Source: Cochliopodium minus (Eukaryota > Discosea > Himatismenida > Cochliopodiidae). Taken from it: a DNA stretch of 38,599 nucleotides. Below, in pieces: positions 2,636 through 31,700 of the stretch (positions within the stretch are counted from its first letter, which is position 1; the number at the start of each line of letters is the position of its first letter). Location: positions 21,026 through 59,624 of the forward strand of contig JAMYWO010000132.1 in assembly GCA_024220525.1 (NCBI GenBank), written 5' to 3'. Made by a program: the position numbers and the translations under genes. Under the pieces are notes generated by a model that saw only the letters and a program-made list of their open reading frames with translations, ran no database searches and had not been told where the DNA came from.

Positions 2636-3873
2636 TTATTTGTTTCTTTTGTAAGCTGGATGATCAGTCGATCTAACTTCAAGCTCCAAAGCCATCAACA
2701 AGTCTCCATTCTCGTTAATCATTCTTTTAGTCCTAAACTGTTTTGCAGAAAAAATACTTTGCCATCCACTGTTATTTTTGTCGTTGTGCTTTTTTTAATA
2801 AAATAATCAAAATTTTAATAACAAAAAATAAATAAATCAAAAAAACAATAATGAATAAATCAAAAAAAAAAAAATAAAAAAATAATTTAAAGTACATTGT
2901 GTTGAGTGTAAAGTTGATTTTTTTCTTCGAACATATGATAAGTTTTTTCGAATTGAAAAGGTGTAAGGTATATTGCCAAATGAAAATCGTGTTCAGGTGC
3001 TTTTTTGATATTTTCGTTGTCTCTTTTTTGAAAATTAAAATCATCCAAACAAAAAATTAAAAATTTTGAAAATACCTAAAATAAAAGAACTGAGATGGAC
3101 CTGATTCAATTGTTGTTATCCCATTCTCTGTTATAGAATTTGCACCAAAAAACTTTGAAAACCATTCTCCTATTTTTTAAAAAATATTAAAAATAAAATA
3201 TAAAAAATTAAAAATAATAAAAAATTAAATTAAAATAAATAAATAAAAAAAAAAAATAAAAAAAAAAATATGATAGAAAATAATTTTGCCAATTTGTTTA
3301 GAATATCCAACACATGTTTCTTGTATTACAAAATAAATTCCACTTTCACGATTGATATCCTCTTTTGAGAAAACATGAAAGTTGGAAAGAGGAAGAGTGA
3401 AATCTAGATATCTTCCATTCACTATCGGATGTTTTTCGGAGATTTTGATTTTATTTTCCTCTATTCCGAGTTCTTCTTGAAGTTTTCTTGCAAAATTTTC
3501 TAATTTTTCGTTGATGATCAATCCTATTGTGCCATTGAATTGTTGCAAAGTTCCTCTTGGTGGAATATGAAATTGGCTTTCTTTTAAATTTCGTTGAAAA
3601 TTTAAAAAAAAAAATTTAAAAAAAAATTTTATAAATTTTTATTACCTCCAATATTGAACCAATTATTATTGAGCGGTGTCAATTCATCCAATTCCAATTT
3701 AAAGACTATTCAAAAAAAAAAAAATATATATATATTTTGTTAAAAGATGTGAAAAGAAATAAATGAAAAGATGTGTTTTTACCATTCGTAAATAATTTGG
3801 TTATGAAATCTTTATCAGGTATATTCATATTGATATGATCAAAAAACAAGATTCCTCTTTTCTCTTCCTCCAT
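2636..3873 (-). CDS. VOC (glyoxalase-fold) superfamily protein, copy B
   Basis: Exons 3873-3783, 3705-3646, 3580-3290, 3169-3076, 3022-2896 and 2788-2636 total 816 nt, 271 aa, with the same intron positions and phases as copy A, including the GC donor (3289-3288). Exon 3 differs from copy A only at its very start, and exon 4 is essentially identical. Exon 1 and especially exon 2 differ (20 versus 22 codons for exon 2, largely different residues after the shared WFNIG). In exon 5 the residues RDS and LSP of copy A read HDF and LTP here. Both copies have intact frames, so both are probably functional. The differences cluster in the first 55 residues and near residue 190, which could alter substrate choice (inference). 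This gene starts 134 bp from the end of the collagen-like gene. Confidence 0.75.
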
Positions 3874-4007: not shown

Positions 4008-7000
4008 TTAATTTGTTTTTAAACCATTCATAATCTTGTCATACAAAGTTCTCCCAAGAGACTTCTGTTGTTCTCTGAGCTCACTGATCTTTTTCTCTTC
4101 TTGCTTGATCCTCTCTTCTTGAGCCTTGATATATTGCTCTCTTTCTTTCTCTTGTTTGTCAAGACGTTCAATGAGTTCATCTTGTTGTTGATTGACATCT
4201 TCAACGGACTTTTCCTTGGATCTAAGACCATTAATAGCATTAAGATTTCTGTGAACAGTCTCTTCATCATTGTAAACATGAAGAACCGAACCAGGAGCTC
4301 CCATGTGACCAGAGCAACCAGCTTCACCCTTTTGTCCGTTATCTCCGCAAGCACCTTTAGTACCACCATGTCCCTTTTCACCACAAGCACCCTTGTCTCC
4401 ACAAGAACCTTTAGTACCAGCATGACCTTTATCACCTTTGGAACCTTGCTCTCCTTTGCATCCATTAGGACCTTGTTCTCCTTTGTTACCTTTATCACCA
4501 TCAGAACCAGGGCAACCATCAGCACCATTATCTCCCTTTTCTCCGTTAGCTCCCTTATCACCAGGAGCACCATCACAACCATTAGAACCATCATCTCCAT
4601 TAGCACCAGAAGAACCCTTATTTCCGTTGTAACCATTGTCACCCTTGTCTCCTTGAACTCCCTTCTCTCCATTATTACCAGAAGCTCCCTTGTTTCCATT
4701 AGCTCCGTTGTTACCGGTAGCTCCACAATCTCCCTTTTCACCATTAGCTCCTTTATTACCATTTTGACCAGGGGTACCAGCATAACCCTTATCTCCATCA
4801 GCACCAGTAGCTCCCTTTTGTCCGTTCTCTCCATCAGAACCAGCACAACCCTTTTCTCCTTGAGCTCCCTTCTCTCCGTTCTCTCCGTTCTCTCCATCAT
4901 AACCATCAGTACCGTTGTCTCCATTTACACCAGATGCACCTTTGTCTCCTTTAGATCCATCCTCTCCATCACATCCCATATCACCTTGATCTCCCTTGTT
5001 ACCAGCTGCACCTTTATTTCCGTTGGTTCCGTTCTCACCAGGAGCTCCATCACATCCGTCTTCTCCTGCACATCCCTTTTCTCCATTAGCTCCCTTGTTA
5101 CCATCACATCCCATATTTCCTTGTTCTCCACAGTCTCCCTTGGAACCAGCTGCTCCCTTTTCTCCATCACATCCGTTAGCACCAGATTCTCCTTTGTTAC
5201 CGTTTTCTCCATCTTCTCCATCACAACCCATATCACCTTGTTCTCCCTTATTACCAGCTGCTCCTTTGTTTCCATCTTTTCCATCACAACCCATATCACC
5301 TTGTTGTCCTTTGTGACCAGCTGCTCCCTTTTGTCCATCTTTTCCGTCACAACCCATATCACCTTGTTCTCCTTTGTTTCCGGGTGCTCCCTTTTCTCCG
5401 TTAGCTCCCTTGTTACCATCACAACCCATATCACCGTTAGCTCCCTTGTTACCAGATGCTCCTTTATTTCCGTTTTGTCCATTGGTTCCGTTATTTCCCT
5501 TCTCTCCAGCACATCCTTTTTCTCCATTAGTACCAGAAGCTCCCTTTTCTCCATTTTCTCCATTGCATCCTGCATATCCCTTTTCTCCAGAAGCTCCCTT
5601 GTTACCATTAGCTCCCTTGTTACCGTTATTTCCGTTTTGACCAGGGCAACCTTTGTCTCCATTTGCTCCGTTTGCTCCCTTGTTACCATTTTGCCCTTTG
5701 TTTCCGTTGTTACCGGATGCTCCCTTATAACCATCAGTACCACTATCTCCCTTTTCTCCATTGTTTCCGTTGGTACCAGATGCTCCTTTATTTCCAGATG
5801 CTCCCTTGTTACCATTAGCACCCTTGTTACCATTGTTTCCATTTTGACCAGGGCAACCTTTATCTCCGTTTGCTCCCTTTTCTCCGTCACAACCCATTGG
5901 ACCTTGATCACCTTTATCACCTTTATCTCCCTTAGGACCCTTGTTACCATTGTTTCCGTTTTGACCAGGGCAACCTTTATCTCCGTTTGCTCCGCTGTCT
6001 CCTTTTTCACCATCACATCCGTTTGCTCCATTTGCTCCTTTTTGTCCATCACAACCATTAGCACCATTTGCTCCTTTGTCTCCATTAGCACCCTTATTAC
6101 CGTTGCTTCCGTTTTGACCAGGGCAACCTTTATCTCCATTTTCTCCGTTTGCTCCCTTTTCTCCATCACACCCGTTCGCTCCATTTTGACCAGGTGTTCC
6201 AGCACAACCCTTATCTCCAGATGGTCCTTTATTTCCATCAGCACCATCACAACCCATATCACCTTGTTCTCCCTTGTTTCCGGATGCTCCCTTTTCTCCG
6301 TTAGCTCCCTTGTTTCCGTCACAACCCATATCACCATTAGCTCCCTTGTTACCAGAAGCTCCCTTTTGTCCATCACAACCATTAGCTCCGTTATCTCCCT
6401 TTTCTCCGTTGTTTCCGTTTTGACCAGGGCAACCTTTATCTCCATTTTCTCCATTAGCTCCCTTTTCTCCATCACATCCATTTGCTCCATTTGCTCCTTT
6501 TTGTCCGTCACAACCGTTTTCTCCTGATGCTCCTTTTTCTCCGTTAGCACCCTTGTTACCGTTGTTTCCGTTTTGACCAGGGCAACCTTTATCTCCATTA
6601 GCTCCGCTGTTTCCTTTTTCTCCATCACATCCATTACTTCCAGAAGCTCCCTTTTCACCATCACACCCATTATCTCCATTAGCTCCTTTGTTACCATTAG
6701 CACCCTTGTTACCATTATTTCCATTTTGACCATCACAACCATTAGCTCCATTTTCTCCTTTAGCTCCATTGCAACCCATTGGACCTTGATCACCTTTATC
6801 ACCTTTATCTCCCTTAGGACCCTTGTTACCGTTGTTTCCGTTTTGACCAGGGCAACCTTTATCTCCGTTTGCTCCGCTGTTTCCTTTTTCACCGTCACAA
6901 CCATTAGCACCGTTTGCTCCTTTTTGTCCATCACAACCATTAGCACCATTTGCTCCTTTGTTACCATTTGCTCCCTTGTTACCGTTGTTTCCGTTGTTAC

Positions 7001-8516
7001 CTGGTCTTCCTTTATCACCGCAATCTCCTTGTTCACCATTTGCTCCCTTGGATCCGTTTTGACCAGGAGTTCCGGCACATCCTTTGTTACCATTAGTTCC
7101 TTTTTGACCGTTAGCACCTTTGTTACCATTATCACCGCAATCTCCTTGTTCACCGTTTGCTCCTTTGTTACCGTTTGCTCCATTTGTTCCTTTTGATCCA
7201 GAAGCTCCTTTTTGACCATTAGTTCCTTTTTGGCCATTAGCACCTTTATTTCCGTTGGTTCCATTTTGACCTGGTACACCACAATCTCCTTCTACACCGT
7301 TGTCTCCTTTTTGTCCAGGAGTTCCGGCATTTCCTTTGTTACCACTTGCTCCTTTTTGACCATTAGTTCCACTTGCACCTTTTTGACCATTAGCTCCACA
7401 ATCCCCATTTGGTCCTTGTGCTCCTTTTTCTCCATCACATCCCTTTTGACCAGATGATCCTTTTTGGCCATTAGCTCCTTTGTTTCCATTAGATCCATTA
7501 GCTCCATTTGATCCTTTGTTTCCGTTTTCTCCAGTTTCTCCATCACATCCATTGGTTCCATTTGTTCCGTTATTTCCATTTGTTCCATTGTCTCCGATTG
7601 GTCCTTTGTTTCCTTTACATCCGTTAGCTCCATTAGCTCCTTTTGTTCCTTTATTTCCATTTGTTCCATTGGTTCCATTCTTTCCTTTGTATCCTTTATC
7701 TCCATTTTCTCCTTTATCTCCTTGTGGTCCTTTGTATCCGGAAGTACCGTTGGACCCATTTGTTCCGTTGGCACCTTTATCTCCGTTTGCTCCGTTAGCT
7801 CCTTTACATCCATTTGCCCCATTTTCTCCCTTTGTTCCTTTATTTCCATTTGTTCCATTGGTTCCATTTGCACCTTTACATCCATTATCTCCATTTTCTC
7901 CTTTATCTCCTTGTGGTCCTTTACATCCGTTTGCTCCGTTAGCACCTTTGTTACCATTTCCTCCTTTGTTTCCATTTGATCCTTTGTTTCCATTTGATCC
8001 GTCGCTACCTTTTCCTCCTTTGTTTCCATTAGCTCCTTTGTTTCCATTGTTTCCATTTTGACCAGCATTACCTTTTGGCCCAACACAACCTTTATCACCG
8101 GTGCATCCTTTTTCTCCTTTGGTTCCTACGTTTCCTTTTTCTCCTTTAGCACCATCGCAACCCATAGATCCTTCATATCCTTTGTTACCATTAGCACCTT
8201 TGTTTCCATTACTTCCATTGCTACCATATTGTCCTTTGTTACCATCAGCACCTTTATTTCCATTACTTCCATTTGTACCAGATGGACCCTTAATACCATT
8301 TGAACCTTTGATTCCTTTTTCTCCATCACATCCCATGGCCCCTTCTTGTCCTTTTTGACCATTGGGTCCTTTATTACCTTTGTCGCCATCACATCCCATG
8401 GCTCCTTCAGATCCCTTTAGACCCTTAGATCCTTTATCGCCTTTTTCACACGTTTGATTGGCTGATATCAGACCTATAAATATTGCAACTATTAGAACTA
8501 AAACAAGTGTTTTCAT
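4008..8516 (-). CDS. Secreted collagen-like protein, 1502 aa, Lys/Asn-rich and proline-poor
   Basis: Single uninterrupted exon. Residues 1-19 form a clear signal peptide ([19 protein letters not shown]), so the product is secreted or displayed at the surface. From about residue 26 to 1409 it consists of Gly-X-Y triplets (about 460). X is often Ala, Asp, Ser, Asn or Cys and Y is dominated by Lys and Asn; proline is scarce, with GCPGQNG the main recurring exception. Cys recurs through GCDG, GCPG and GCKG units, so disulfide cross-linking between chains is plausible. The last 93 residues are non-collagenous: a short [10 protein letters not shown] segment and then about 60 charged residues with heptad spacing, a likely trimerising coiled coil. 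Codon choice (GGT/GGA Gly, AAC/AAT Asn) and G+C content set it apart from flanking DNA. Long sub-repeats (e.g. the [13 protein letters not shown] type) show internal amplification. The ATG at 8516 is fixed by the signal peptide. Possible roles are extracellular matrix, cyst wall or adhesion; a viral or bacterial source cannot be excluded. Confidence 0.93.
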
Positions 8517-8743
8517 TTTTTTTTGTTTTTGTTTTGTCAGAAAAATTTATTTATTTAAAAGATAATTTATTATTTGACGAATTTATCTTTACTTAAGGCT
8601 TTTGGAATTTTTGACTAATTGCTCCTTTTATCGATGAAAGTATAGTATTTTGGACCTATATCCTTGTTTTAAAAGGAATAACTTTTTTTTTGAATACCGA
8701 CATATGATATTTTCANAATTTATGATCCGAAAAATAAAAGTAT
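8517..8743. other. Intergenic region with one ambiguous base
   Basis: Upstream region of the collagen gene and downstream region of the RCC1 gene. It contains one N at 8716. The T-rich tract just above the collagen ATG (8517-8535) reads as a poly-A leader on the coding strand. No gene seen. Confidence 0.6.
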
Positions 8744-25989: not shown

Positions 25990-27734
25990 ATGTTGGAGAA
26001 TATAACAAATAACATTGAATTGAATGAAAATCAAAAAACATCTGTATTGTATGATCCAAATAAGCCTCTGATTATCTTTGCAGGACCGTAAATAAATTTA
26101 TAATTTGACATTTAACTAATTATTATTATATCATTTTGATAGAGGAAGTGGAAAATCAACAACGATGTAACTTGGAGCCTTTTTTTAATTTATAAAGATA
26201 AATATTTCTTTATATACAGTAATATAAATTTCTTAGAATATAAGTTACAAATATAAATTTTATAATGTATATATTAACAATATAATCAAGAATTCAAAAA
26301 ATCATACACATGGTAAACTACCAAAACATAAATGCAAAGAATATACTCGGTAAACAACAAAATTATGAAATGAAATTAACATTTTAAAAAAATAAACTTA
26401 AGGATTGACATTCACCAACAAAGCAGCGAAAGAAATGAAGCAAAAAATGATATCATCGTTGGGAAATCAGAGGCCAGAATTCACAAAAGAGCTCTCCAAT
26501 GTATATTTTGCAACATTCCATTCATTCTGCTTCAAATTACTGAGAGATTTCAAAATTCTTCCCGCCAACGTGGTATGCTACAACGAATACGAACAAAGAA
26601 ACATCATAAAGAAGATCTTGGAAGAGATCAGAAAGAATGCAAAGGACGCCAAGATAAAGAAGGACAAAGAAAATGGAAAGTCTATCAACATAGATGACAA
26701 AGAGTATATTGACCAGGAAATGAAGGAAAAAGACATCTCAAAGGAAATAAACAACCAAGTGAAGGAAATCTTGACTCTAATAACAAAGTAAGAAAAAAAA
26801 TATTTATCAAATTTTTTTTCTTTAATTTTTTATTTCTTTAAAATATTTTTTTTAATTCTTTAAATTTTTTTTTTCTAATCAAAGATATAAAGCTAATCTG
26901 ACCAGACCAGAAGAGTTTCTCAGTCTCTCAAACGAGGAGATTTTGGCGGGAGAGTTACCCATTAGAAAGTTGTGGGTCGAGTACGAGATTGAGAAGAAAA
27001 AGAACAACGCCATTGATTTCGGAGATATGTTGTCCATCTTCTTGGAGTATTTTTCCGAAGAAAAAAATCTACATCTGCTTCAAAAGATACAAAACAGATA
27101 TAGACACGTTTTGGTGGATGAATTTCAAGGTATTTTCATTTTTCTTTATTACTTTTTTTAATTAAAACTATCTTTTTCACCTATAGATACATCTTCTTTA
27201 CAATTTGACATTTTGGTTCTTTTGAAGGGAAAAAACAACCCAAATTTCAAATTTTCAGAGTCGGTTTGTGTCGTGGGTGATCCAGATCAGTCTATTTATT
27301 CATGGTAGGATCTTCTTCTTTTATTAATTTTGTTTTATTGTTCAAATTTTAAAAAACTAAAAACACATTTTTTTAAAAGGAGAGGAGGTAAATTGAATTA
27401 TTTTTTATTATTTGTAATTATTGTTTTAAATTAATATAAAAATATTTATTAATCAAAAATTGACTTTTTTGTTGACAGCTTCTCAATCAGTTTTCTCTAA
27501 ATTCAAAGAATTATTCACAAGTAAATCGATACAACTCAACCAAAATTACAGAAGCACCAAGATGATCATCAACACTTGTAGCAAGTTACTTAAAGACGAC
27601 AAGTCGAGAGTGTTTGACAATGAGATGAAAACTTTTAATAGCGATGGGAGCAAAGTTTCTTTTTTAATATGTGATGACATTGTGAAAGAAGCCAAATTTG
27701 TTGCGACCAAAATTTTGGGTGAACAAAAACTAAA
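25990..27734 (+). CDS. UvrD/Rep-type superfamily 1 DNA helicase, 3' end lost in gap
   Basis: Exons 25990-26087, 26143-26166, 26291-26312, 26340-26349, 26403-26787, 26885-27129, 27187-27304, 27380-27387 and 27479 to about 27734 keep a single frame. Visible motifs: Q-motif (ELNENQ), motif I (IFAGPGSGKSTT), Ia (LGLTFTNKAAKEM), Ib-region TFHSFCFKLLR, AIDFGDML, motif II (HVLVDEFQD), III (VVGDPDQSIYSWRGA) and IV (IQLNQNYRST). This is the UvrD/PcrA/Srs2 order; such enzymes unwind DNA 3'-5' in repair and recombination. Motifs V and VI are not visible: coding sequence gives way to a T-rich tract with candidate donors at 27719 or 27735, and the N run begins at 27854. Four exons are tiny (24, 22, 10 and 8 nt). 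The 10-nt exon supplies NIL of motif Ia and the 8-nt exon supplies RG of motif III, which is strong support for both. The lysine-rich insert after Ib (about residues 130-165) is unusual. It could be a Srs2-like eukaryotic helicase or a transferred bacterial gene. Confidence 0.88.
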
Positions 27735-27853: not shown

Positions 27854-28395
27854 NNNNNNNNNNNNNNNNNNNNNNNNNNNNNNNNNNNNNNNNNNNNNNN
27901 NNNNNNNNNNNNNNNNNNNNNNNNNNNNNNNNNNNNNNNNNNNNNNNNNNNNNNNNNNNNNNNNNNNNNNNNNNNNNNNNNNNNNNNNNNNNNNNNNNNN
28001 NNNNNNNNNNNNNNNNNNNNNNNNNNNNNNNNNNNNNNNNNNNNNNNNNNNNNNNNNNNNNNNNNNNNNNNNNNNNNNNNNNNNNNNNNNNNNNNNNNNN
28101 NNNNNNNNNNNNNNNNNNNNNNNNNNNNNNNNNNNNNNNNNNNNNNNNNNNNNNNNNNNNNNNNNNNNNNNNNNNNNNNNNNNNNNNNNNNNNNNNNNNN
28201 NNNNNNNNNNNNNNNNNNNNNNNNNNNNNNNNNNNNNNNNNNNNNNNNNNNNNNNNNNNNNNNNNNNNNNNNNNNNNNNNNNNNNNNNNNNNNNNNNNNN
28301 NNNNNNNNNNNNNNNNNNNNNNNNNNNNNNNNNNNNNNNNNNNNNNNNNNNNNNNNNNNNNNNNNNNNNNNNNNNNNNNNNNNNNNNNNNNNNNN
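27854..28395. other. Assembly gap (542 N)
   Basis: Unknown sequence. It must contain the 3' half of the helicase gene and possibly the 5' exon of the NDR kinase gene, so its true size is probably different. Confidence 0.98.
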
Positions 28396-28412
28396 TTTTT
28401 TATCGTGTTAAA

Positions 28413-28442
28413 AATATGTGTCTGGAGGTCCAGACACATATT
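28413..28442. repeat. 30-bp near-perfect palindrome
   Basis: Arms 28413-28426 (AATATGTGTCTGGA) and 28429-28442 are perfect 14-bp inverted repeats around a GG centre. The GTCTGGA/TCCAGAC core stands out in A/T-only surroundings. It could form a hairpin or be a protein-binding palindrome or transposon-end remnant; no open frame uses it. Confidence 0.85.
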
Positions 28443-28794
28443 AAAAAAGAAAAAAAAATTTCCCCTTATGTTGTAACTAAAATTTATTTTTATGAATAAT
28501 ATTTAAAAACACCATCAAAATAGTTAAATGAAAATTTCTATGATAAATTAACCCTTATATCAGATTTATCCAAGATAAAAATGAAATAAATCATTCATAA
28601 ATAAAGGATAATGAAAATTTTTTTGTAACATAAAATTTTATATCTCCTATCTTTTGGAGAATAAGTATTGTTGATAAACAAATTATAAAAGTTGAATTAA
28701 TTAATTTGAAAAATTTAACAAGAATATTTAAAGGATGATTTTCAATATTTAAAATCTTTCAACTTTTTTTTTTCTTAAAAAAAAAAAAACAAAG
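28443..28794. other. Upstream region or first intron of NDR kinase gene
   Basis: A/T-rich sequence of 352 bp ending in a T-rich/A-rich tract and an AAAG acceptor. No convincing first coding exon could be found, so the kinase start lies here unrecognised or inside the gap. Confidence 0.5.
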
Positions 28795-31700
28795 CATTGA
28801 AAGACAAAGTAAAAGCGTACAAAAAGTATCTATACGAATACTACTGCGGCCTCTTCATCTACCTGCAAGACCGCAAAGAAAGGTTCAACAAAATCTCCTC
28901 CAAAATAAACATCCTCCCGCTTAACGAAGCAAAGAACACCATGTTAGCACATTACACCAAAGAAACGAATTTTCTCAGGCAGAAGAGGAGGAAGATGAGG
29001 ATGGGCGAGTTCGAAATTTTGGCGCTTCTTGGCAAGGGTTCTTTTGGGTGTGTTTATTTGTCTAGGAAGGTTGACACTGGCGAGATTTTGGCTCTCAAAA
29101 AGATGGAGAAGGCCAATTTTGATAAACAAAATAAGGTGATTATTTTTTTAAAATTTTTATTATGTATTAATTTAATTTTTAATTTTTAATTTTTTTAATT
29201 TAGATTTTTTTATTTTTTATTTTATTTTTGTTAAAATTTTTTGATTTTTATTTTTATTTGATTTATTTTTATATATTATTAAAAAAAATTTTATTTTTTT
29301 TGTTATTTTGTAGGTGAGAGTGATGAGAGAAAAGAAGATTTTGTCTAAAGTTGATTCAGATTGGCTCATCAAACTTTCTTACTCCTTTCAAGATCCTCAT
29401 TACTTGTATTTGGCAATGGTAAAATTAAAATTGATTAAAAATTTAAAAAATTGATTAATTAAAAACAAAAAAATAAAATAAAAAATAAAAAATAAATAAA
29501 ATAAAAATAAATAAAAAATAAATCAAAAATAAATCAAAATTAAAATTAAAAAAATTATTTTGGTAGGAATACATTCCGGGAGGGGATTTGAGATCTTTGC
29601 TTACTACTGTTGGAACTTTGGACGAAGACACCGCAAAGTGGTATTTGGTCGAAATGATATGTTCAGTTGTAGCTTTACATAGTTTGGGGTTTAAAACAAT
29701 TTTAATTAAAATTAATATTAAACAAAATTTAAAAATAAATAATTCGTTAAAATTAAATTTAAAAATAATTAAAATAATTTAAATTTTAAAAAAAAAATTA
29801 TAAAAAATTATTAAAACAAAAAATTATTAAATTAAATAATTCATTAAAATTAAATTTAAAAATAATTAAAATGATGAAAATAATAAAAATATTAAAATAA
29901 ATAATTCATTAAAAATATTAAATAATAAAGAATTATAAAATATTAACAAATAATTCATTAAAATAAAATTTAAAACCTTGATGAAAATAATTAATAAAAA
30001 ATTATTTGAAATAAAATATTTATTAAAAAAATAAAAAGTTTTTGACAGTTAATTAAAAATTATTAAAAAAACTGTTTGAGTATTCAAAAAATAATTAAAC
30101 ATTTTTTTTTTTTAGATACACTCATAGAGACTTAAAGCCAGAAAATTTCTTGATAGACAGCCAAGGGCATATTAAGTTAGGAGACTTTGGTTTGAGCAAA
30201 GAAGGTCTCAAAAATCATTACAAAGACACTTTGAGTTACAAGGGTCTCAATTTGAACACTTTGCAGAAACTCGATTACAAAACGAGATTGTTTTCTTACC
30301 AGAAGGGAAAAAGCAAGTATCACAGTGTTGTTGGTTCTCCTGATTATATGGCTGTTGAGATTTTGAGAGGAGAGGAAGGGTAAACCATAATTTTTTATCT
30401 TTTTATTTTTTTATTTTTTTATTTTTTTTGTATCTTTTTCAATAAATTTATTTTCTTTTTTCATTTTATTTTTTTTATTTTATTTTTTTATTTTTTTCAT
30501 TTCCTTATTTTTACTGTCAAAAAATCTATTCATTTATTTACATTTTTTTTATTTGTTTTTATTTTATTTTTATTTTAGTTTTATTTTAGTTTTATTTTAT
30601 TTTTATTTTTTTTTTATTTTTTTTTTATTTTTTTTTTATTTTTTTTTTTTTGTCATAGTTATGACGAAAAAGTGGATTTTTGGTGTATAGGAGTGATTTT
30701 TTACGAGATGTTGGCCAGCTTGCCTCCTTTCTACGCAGAGAACCCCATGATAGTGTACAACAACATTCTGGACTTTTCCAACACCCTCGAGTTTCCTGAG
30801 CTTGAAAACGAAGAAGGTGAAGTTCTTCCTTGTATGTCCAAAGAAGCTTGGGTAAAAAAAAATATTCAAAAAAAAATTTTAAATTTTAAAAAAAAATTTA
30901 TTTAAATAAAAAATAAAAAAAATAAAAGATAAAAATATTTTATTTTTAAAATTAAATTAAAAATTAAATAAAAATAATTATTTTTAAAAATTAATTTGTA
31001 AGAATGAAAAATAATAATAAAAATAAATTTGAAATTAAAATTGAAATAAGCAAAAAAAAATTGAAAAAAATGTTTAATTTAAAAAATATTTAATTTTAAA
31101 AATATTTGATTTTAAAAAATATTTGATTTTAAAAATATTTGATTTTAAAAAATTTTTGATCCCAAAAAATATTTTAAAAAAATTTAATTGTAAATTTTTT
31201 TTATGATAAAGGAATTCATCTTGATGTTGGTTTGTGAGCCAGAGAAAAGACTTTCTTCACTTAAAGAGTTTAAGAACCATGATTATTTGAAGGAAATAGA
31301 TTTCCATAAGATCAGATCTCAAGAGCCTCCCTTCGTTCCCAAACTCGAAGATGAAACTGATACTTCTTATTTCTCTCAATTCACCGACATTGATGTAAAG
31401 GTAAATAAAAAAAAATAAAAAATTGAAGATTATTTAATAAATCCAAAATAAAATAAAATTAAAAAATAAAAATTAAAAAAATTAAAAATGTAAAGTCAAA
31501 ATATAAATGTAAATATAAATAATTAAAAAAAAAATTGAAGATTATTTAATAAATCCAAAATAAAAAAAAAATTAATAAACAAAAAATACATTAAAATTTA
31601 AAATTTAAAATAAAAATAAATTAAAACCAAAATAAAAAAAAATCAAATGAAATAAATAATAAATAAAAGGAAATAAAAAAAAAAACAAAAATTCAAAAAA

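Follow-up and report, generated by a model that had tools for sequence, protein, structure and literature searches.

Micro-exons of only a few nucleotides have been described as constitutive parts of genes, the published examples including exons of 6 nt and 1 nt (PMC4674806) and of 4 nt (PMC9929638), and an alternative exon of 3 nt likewise falls within the published range. In plants, micro-exons of 1–15 nt include a 1-nt exon in APC11 and an 8-nt exon in the helicase gene RECQ3, and 106 exons of this size class have been counted in Arabidopsis (PMC8831610, PMC4674806). For micro-exons of up to 27 nt that depend on PRP-40/PRPF40A, recognition by intron definition across short introns has been proposed, with a dependence that rises with the length of the flanking introns (PMC8378409), and a method for the detection of micro-exons of 3–15 nt has been reported in work on Creolimax (PMC4739763). 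Across our limited survey of the literature, no micro-exon-rich protist was named.

The stretch of DNA analysed here, hereafter the window, covers 38,599 nt of a contig (C132) of the single-celled eukaryote Cochliopodium minus, whose genome assembly comprises 44.65 Mb in 598 contigs; all positions are counted from the first letter of the window. On the forward strand, a gene for a superfamily 1A helicase of the UvrD/PcrA type is represented by its 5′ half, at positions 25990–27721 (Table 1). This is, with high probability, a nuclear gene with spliceosomal introns, in which micro-exons of 8 nt and 24 nt and an exon of 59 nt are joined through intron definition with stepwise intron removal. The anatomy of the gene, its reading frame, the completion of the family motifs and the excess of these matches over chance are established by the analyses set out below. 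A micro-exon is defined throughout as an internal coding exon of at most 30 nt that lies between GT–AG introns and is needed for the frame or for a motif, and, by their sequence, the 8-nt and 24-nt exons are both of this kind.

Table 1. Exons, selected introns and sequence gap of the C. minus helicase gene, with positions in the window; percentiles are ranks among 99 surveyed introns.
Feature	Content	Position	Strand	Support or splice-site rank
First coding exon, 98 nt	MLENITNNIELNENQK...IIFAGP, start of Walker A	25990..26087	+	
Micro-exon, 24 nt	Completes Walker A (GSGKSTT), phase 2-2	26143..26166	+	Spliced aligner, shuffles, intron nulls
Intron, 124 nt		26167..26290	+	Donor 6th, acceptor 5th percentile
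Exon, 59 nt		26291..26349	+	Pfam gain, aligner choice, gap-free structure alignments
Exon, 385 nt	Motif Ia (GLTFTNKAA), TFHS motif	26403..26787	+	
Exon, 245 nt	Motif II (VDEFQ)	26885..27129	+	
Exon, 118 nt	DTSS...GDPDQSIYS	27187..27304	+	
Intron before 8-nt exon, 75 nt		27305..27379	+	Donor GTAGGA 9th, acceptor 40th percentile
Micro-exon, 8 nt	GAGAGGAG, Arg-Gly of motif III (SIYSWRGA)	27380..27387	+	
Intron after 8-nt exon, 91 nt		27388..27478	+	Donor GTAAAT 52nd, acceptor 20th percentile
Exon, 3′ end as modelled	ASQSVFSKFKELF...LNQNYRST (motif IV)	27479..27721	+	
Run of 542 N	Helicase breaks off here, at a gap or a withheld stretch	27854..28395		

The original prediction, a UvrD-type helicase gene containing micro-exons, was right in the family and in the presence of micro-exons. 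The corrected model, with exons of 98, 24, 59, 385, 245, 118, 8 and at least 243 nt encoding 393 residues, scores 230.5 bits against PF00580 and covers positions 1–270 of the 271 of that profile, with the N-terminal UvrD domain bearing Walker A, motif Ia, the DExQ box and motif III. At E 0.001 or better, 25 distinct solved-structure sequences match the protein, the best of them being bacterial UvrD/PcrA. From the sequence, the ATG at 25990 is likely to be the start codon.

The gene is incomplete in the window. Ahead of the N run, the C-terminal domain PF13361, which holds motifs V and VI, is matched only at positions 1–61 of its 350, and a search of 28396–29400 for UvrD C-terminal sequence returned nothing credible (best 16.0 bits). 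Cut by this run and without a C-terminal half after it, the helicase might be a broken copy, against which stand its intact motifs and a frame that is open over about 390 codons. Other matches to PF13361 in the genome lie on contigs C178, C53, C176 and C224, and those on C178 and C224 appear, by their sequence, to resemble the kind of C-terminal sequence that is missing here. On the former (L006, C178:53583-56942), UvrD C-terminal-like exons adjoin a copy of the window's collagen-like gene (4008-8546), the two being 93.5% identical over 780 nt; on the latter (L010, C224:40018-43401), a UvrD C-terminal-like stretch lies downstream of an ORF on the same strand that appears to resemble the C-terminal part of the XPB helicase. 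A search of genome contigs for relatives produced 42 pattern stretches, 0 of them confirmed. Within the window, an inverted repeat with perfect arms of 13 bases (28413-28425 and 28430-28442, with a loop of 4) is found shortly after the N run and is followed by an NDR/AGC-like kinase gene, and two ORFs on the reverse strand (1834-2199 and 3225-3638) are 98.4% identical over 364 nt and form a local duplication.

The exons were sought with a GeneWise-like spliced aligner whose profile consisted of 12 UvrD-type sequences, taken from the 30 UvrD-like matches listed for a phage collection, with the window's own protein left out. At intron penalties of 6, 8, 10 and 12 bits, this blind alignment chose the 24-nt, 59-nt and 8-nt exons at the positions given in Table 1. 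It put the end of the 385-nt exon at 26679, omitting a stretch that is missing from its profile; the 3′ end adopted for this exon was placed by a GTAAGA donor and by the alignment of QVKEILTLITKYKANL to UvrD.

Two separate exons of 22 nt (26291-26312) and 10 nt (26340-26349) had been predicted, an arrangement that was not borne out, since the two are the ends of the single 59-nt exon. This exon reads IQKIIHMVNYQNINAKNIL with no stop, and the 27 nt between its ends (26313-26339) are a multiple of three, encode VNYQNINAK in frame, restore the spacing of the family and have an A+T content of 70%, as against 86% in the introns of the helicase gene. Once they are included, the PF00580 score rises from 207.2 bits to its final value, and the three printed UvrD/PcrA structure alignments run free of gaps from the P-loop to TFTNKAA. 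The model with micro-exons of 24, 22, 10 and 8 nt would need an intron of 27 nt between the second and the third, which does begin with GT, at a fair donor (48th percentile), and end with AG, and both readings are in frame; a 28-nt intron was also called at locus L036, though at an alignment gap, for which it was disregarded. That model nonetheless scores 23 bits lower in Pfam, deletes nine residues where UvrD and PcrA align gap-free, relies on an acceptor in the 2nd percentile and was left unchosen at all four penalties by the blind aligner, in which introns were allowed from 20 nt, while 98 of the 99 surveyed introns measure at least 48 nt, the remaining one being the doubtful 28-nt call. 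We consider it extremely unlikely, and the 59-nt exon is retained. The junctions of the 124-nt intron, which join the 24-nt and 59-nt exons through weak sites, are the least certain of the model.

The two other predicted micro-exons stood up well. The 24-nt exon is preceded by AG, followed by GT and in the right phase, completing Walker A (AGPGSGKSTT), and the 8-nt exon, GAGAGGAG between aaaag and gtaaat, is likewise in the right phase and completes motif III (GDPDQSIYSWRGA). Parses between the exons that neighbour the latter were enumerated under fixed rules (first donor GT or GC, second donor GT, acceptor AG, introns of at least 20 nt, a middle exon of 1-60 nt and an open frame joined to FSKFKELF). 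There were two parses with a single intron, both losing GDPDQ...RGA, and six with two introns that kept PDQ, among which SIYSWRGA arose only from the combination of 27305, 27380-27387 and 27479.

Neither exon is readily matched by chance. The real score was reached by 0 of 600 dinucleotide shuffles for the 8-nt exon and by 0 of 600 for the 24-nt exon; for the former, the best shuffle came to 83.4 bits against the real 85.0, and at least half of the gain was obtained in 70 of the 600, since shuffling retains the exon's G-rich bases. When the intron interior was replaced by other real introns of the genome, the real score was equalled in 0 of 100 replacements for either exon, the gain of the 8-nt exon being 25.6 bits against a null maximum of 15.1 (with some gain in 23 of the 100) and that of the 24-nt exon 14.7 bits against a maximum of 0.0. 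A scan for the splice-and-codon pattern AG-G-(Arg codon)-GGN-G-GT gave a single hit in the window, the 8-nt exon itself; there was none in the surveyed introns (11,671 nt), and none on either strand of 86 further genomic loci (567,150 nt) that do not overlap the helicase gene. An alternative is that the 8-nt segment is never spliced in, the gene being a pseudogene or its motif having been recovered by chance, a reading that draws on the breaking off of the gene at the 542-N run and the lack of a C-terminal half beyond it, on the weak donor before the exon and on a best shuffle that nears the real score. It is very unlikely, given that both splice sites are present, that the Arg-Gly of motif III is supplied in phase and is identical in all three printed UvrD/PcrA structure alignments, that neither null produced an equal and that all other helicase exons are open in frame.

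Skipping of the 8-nt exon is predicted to shift the frame and to bring a stop at residue 317, and retention of its upstream or downstream intron to bring a stop at residue 311 or 328, respectively, so that inclusion of the exon would be required for a full-length product. Skipping of the 24-nt exon, by prediction, keeps the frame and loses the P-loop. These frame consequences, together with the weak sites around the 24-nt exon, would suit a regulated switch, in which inclusion of the 8-nt exon sets the amount of helicase and skipping of the 24-nt exon yields a helicase without Walker A. We hold such a switch to be improbable, as several micro-exons of the small GTPases described below also lie in catalytic motifs, which suits constitutive use.

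Under the preferred reading of intron definition, each short helicase intron (53–124 nt) would be recognised as a unit, its donor being paired with its acceptor. The two introns beside the 8-nt exon would be removed in succession, because two spliceosomes could hardly fit on both sides of 8 nt simultaneously, and the 91-nt downstream intron may leave first, having the better donor of the two (GTAAAT, 52nd against 9th percentile). As the introns that flank the small exons are mostly short, intron definition with stepwise removal is likely. With weak sites on the 124-nt intron and a weak donor ahead of the 8-nt exon, inclusion may be less than efficient.

The 99 surveyed introns have a median length of 75 nt, with a donor consensus of AAG/GTAAAA and the acceptor TAG, and the three commonest donors, GTAAAA, GTAAAT and GTAAGA, account for 60 of them. 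Near their 3′ ends, the highest enrichment is that of the word CTAAA, a possible branch point, at only 1.8-fold, and the A+T content of the surveyed introns is 84.2%, that of the genome's loci being 72.5%. In composition these values set the genome apart from that of Anaeramoeba ignava (80.65% A+T, with 91.86% in its introns; PMC11550330), and in intron density it differs from Acrasis kona (44.02 Mbp), in which intron-bearing genes have 1–2 introns each (PMC11589745). Searches for components of the splicing machinery gave two matches to U6 snRNA in the genome and a U1 candidate at 36.7 bits, under the gathering score of 69.5, while a search for U12 snRNA gave no match, its control being likewise silent. 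Two adjacent FF domains, an arrangement found in PRP40-like factors, are present on contig C128 and suggest a putative PRP40-like protein.

Small exons elsewhere in the genome were surveyed at 20 small-GTPase loci (L071-L090), of which L085 is cut by a contig end, and at 17 kinase loci together with the window's kinase gene, using profiles compiled from those GTPases and kinases of the genome that lack introns. The GTPases were picked for a Pfam match that starts at residue 50-77, with introns upstream, and are a non-random sample. Among their internal exons, 15 of 42 are of 30 nt or less, distributed over 11 of the 20 genes (13, 13, 16, 22, 24 and 28 nt, with five of 18 nt and four of 20 nt), whereas the kinases have 0 of 21, the smallest being 40 nt. 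Small exons run across G motifs, as in L075 (GCCGGACAAGAAG, AGQE) and L079 (GATACCGCAGGTCAAG, DTAGQ), and several span the G1 and G3 motifs. The upstream introns of all 15 and the downstream introns of 10 measure 48–83 nt, the remaining five downstream introns being of 140–295 nt; the introns that flank micro-exons were not significantly shorter than the others surveyed (median 66 vs 81 nt, p = 0.08), and both observations speak against a simple rule.

When the real-intron null was applied to these GTPase exons, none of the 100 replacements equalled 11 of the 12 micro-exon units, which together hold 14 of the 15 exons; the exception was the first 13-nt exon of L075, which was equalled in 6 of 100. 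As a control, 156 synthetic genes were made by the insertion of real introns at distances of 60 nt or more; 5 of the 473 internal exons that the aligner called in them were false ones of at most 30 nt, and in 137 of the 156 genes all three internal exons were exactly recovered. As far as sequence evidence reaches, the excess of small exons in the GTPases is real for a sample that is neither random nor genome-wide.

The paralogues L074, L078 and L087 have a common layout of 54/18/20/295 nt. Their introns are 67–84% identical (proteins 60–63%), only somewhat above the 65% of random A/T-rich sequence, so no conservation of introns is claimed. Two further patterns, the absence of introns from the final third of the GTPase domain (0 of 62) and the length of the last GTPase intron (median 188.5 vs 64 nt), were dropped as selection effects, because the genes had been chosen by the start of the Pfam match. 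Six-frame matches in the genome number at least 164 for the Ras family and at least 158 for protein kinases (exon matches), which makes these large signalling families.

On balance, we lean towards regarding C. minus as rich in micro-exons: about one-third of the internal exons would be of 13–30 nt in genes such as the greatly expanded small GTPases, many of them across catalytic G motifs and mostly between introns of 48–83 nt, with as little as 8 nt tolerated in the helicase. Its spliceosome would then be routinely intron-defining and accept exons down to almost any size, and ordinary gene finders would mis-annotate many of the conserved genes. Given the 0 of 21 in the kinases, small exons may be confined to certain genes. 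Should the density seen in the GTPases hold genome-wide, it would offer a natural test of the minimum exon size that intron definition allows when neither special factors nor regulation are involved, and would warn that gene finders and homology searches can lose catalytic motifs.

Set beside known systems, the helicase has motifs I, Ia, II, III and IV in the same order as the UvrD/PcrA/Rep group of superfamily 1A and shares 26–33% identity with the 30 UvrD-like sequences listed from the phage collection. Unlike the UvrD/PcrA/Rep helicases, the C. minus gene is split by seven introns, and motifs V and VI are absent from the window. The original description of a constitutive 8-nt exon as extreme was overstated, as the constitutive exons of 6 nt and 1 nt (PMC4674806) and of 4 nt (PMC9929638) are smaller; the 8-nt exon is one more case of a known class, and what deserves further attention is the apparent density of such exons among the GTPases. 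As in constitutive plant micro-exons, according to the accounts consulted, the tiny exons are coding, often lie in conserved motifs and are often missed by annotation (PMC8831610, PMC4674806), although the lineage and the genes are different. Whereas 106 micro-exons were counted in Arabidopsis, the small, non-random GTPase sample already yields two 13-nt exons, of which one did not exceed the null, and the helicase adds an 8-nt exon. The published proposal of intron definition for the recognition of tiny exons (PMC8378409) would, by analogy, fit the helicase; set against a dependence on PRP-40 that rises with flanking-intron length, the introns here measure 75 and 91 nt around the 8-nt exon and 55 and 124 nt around the 24-nt exon.
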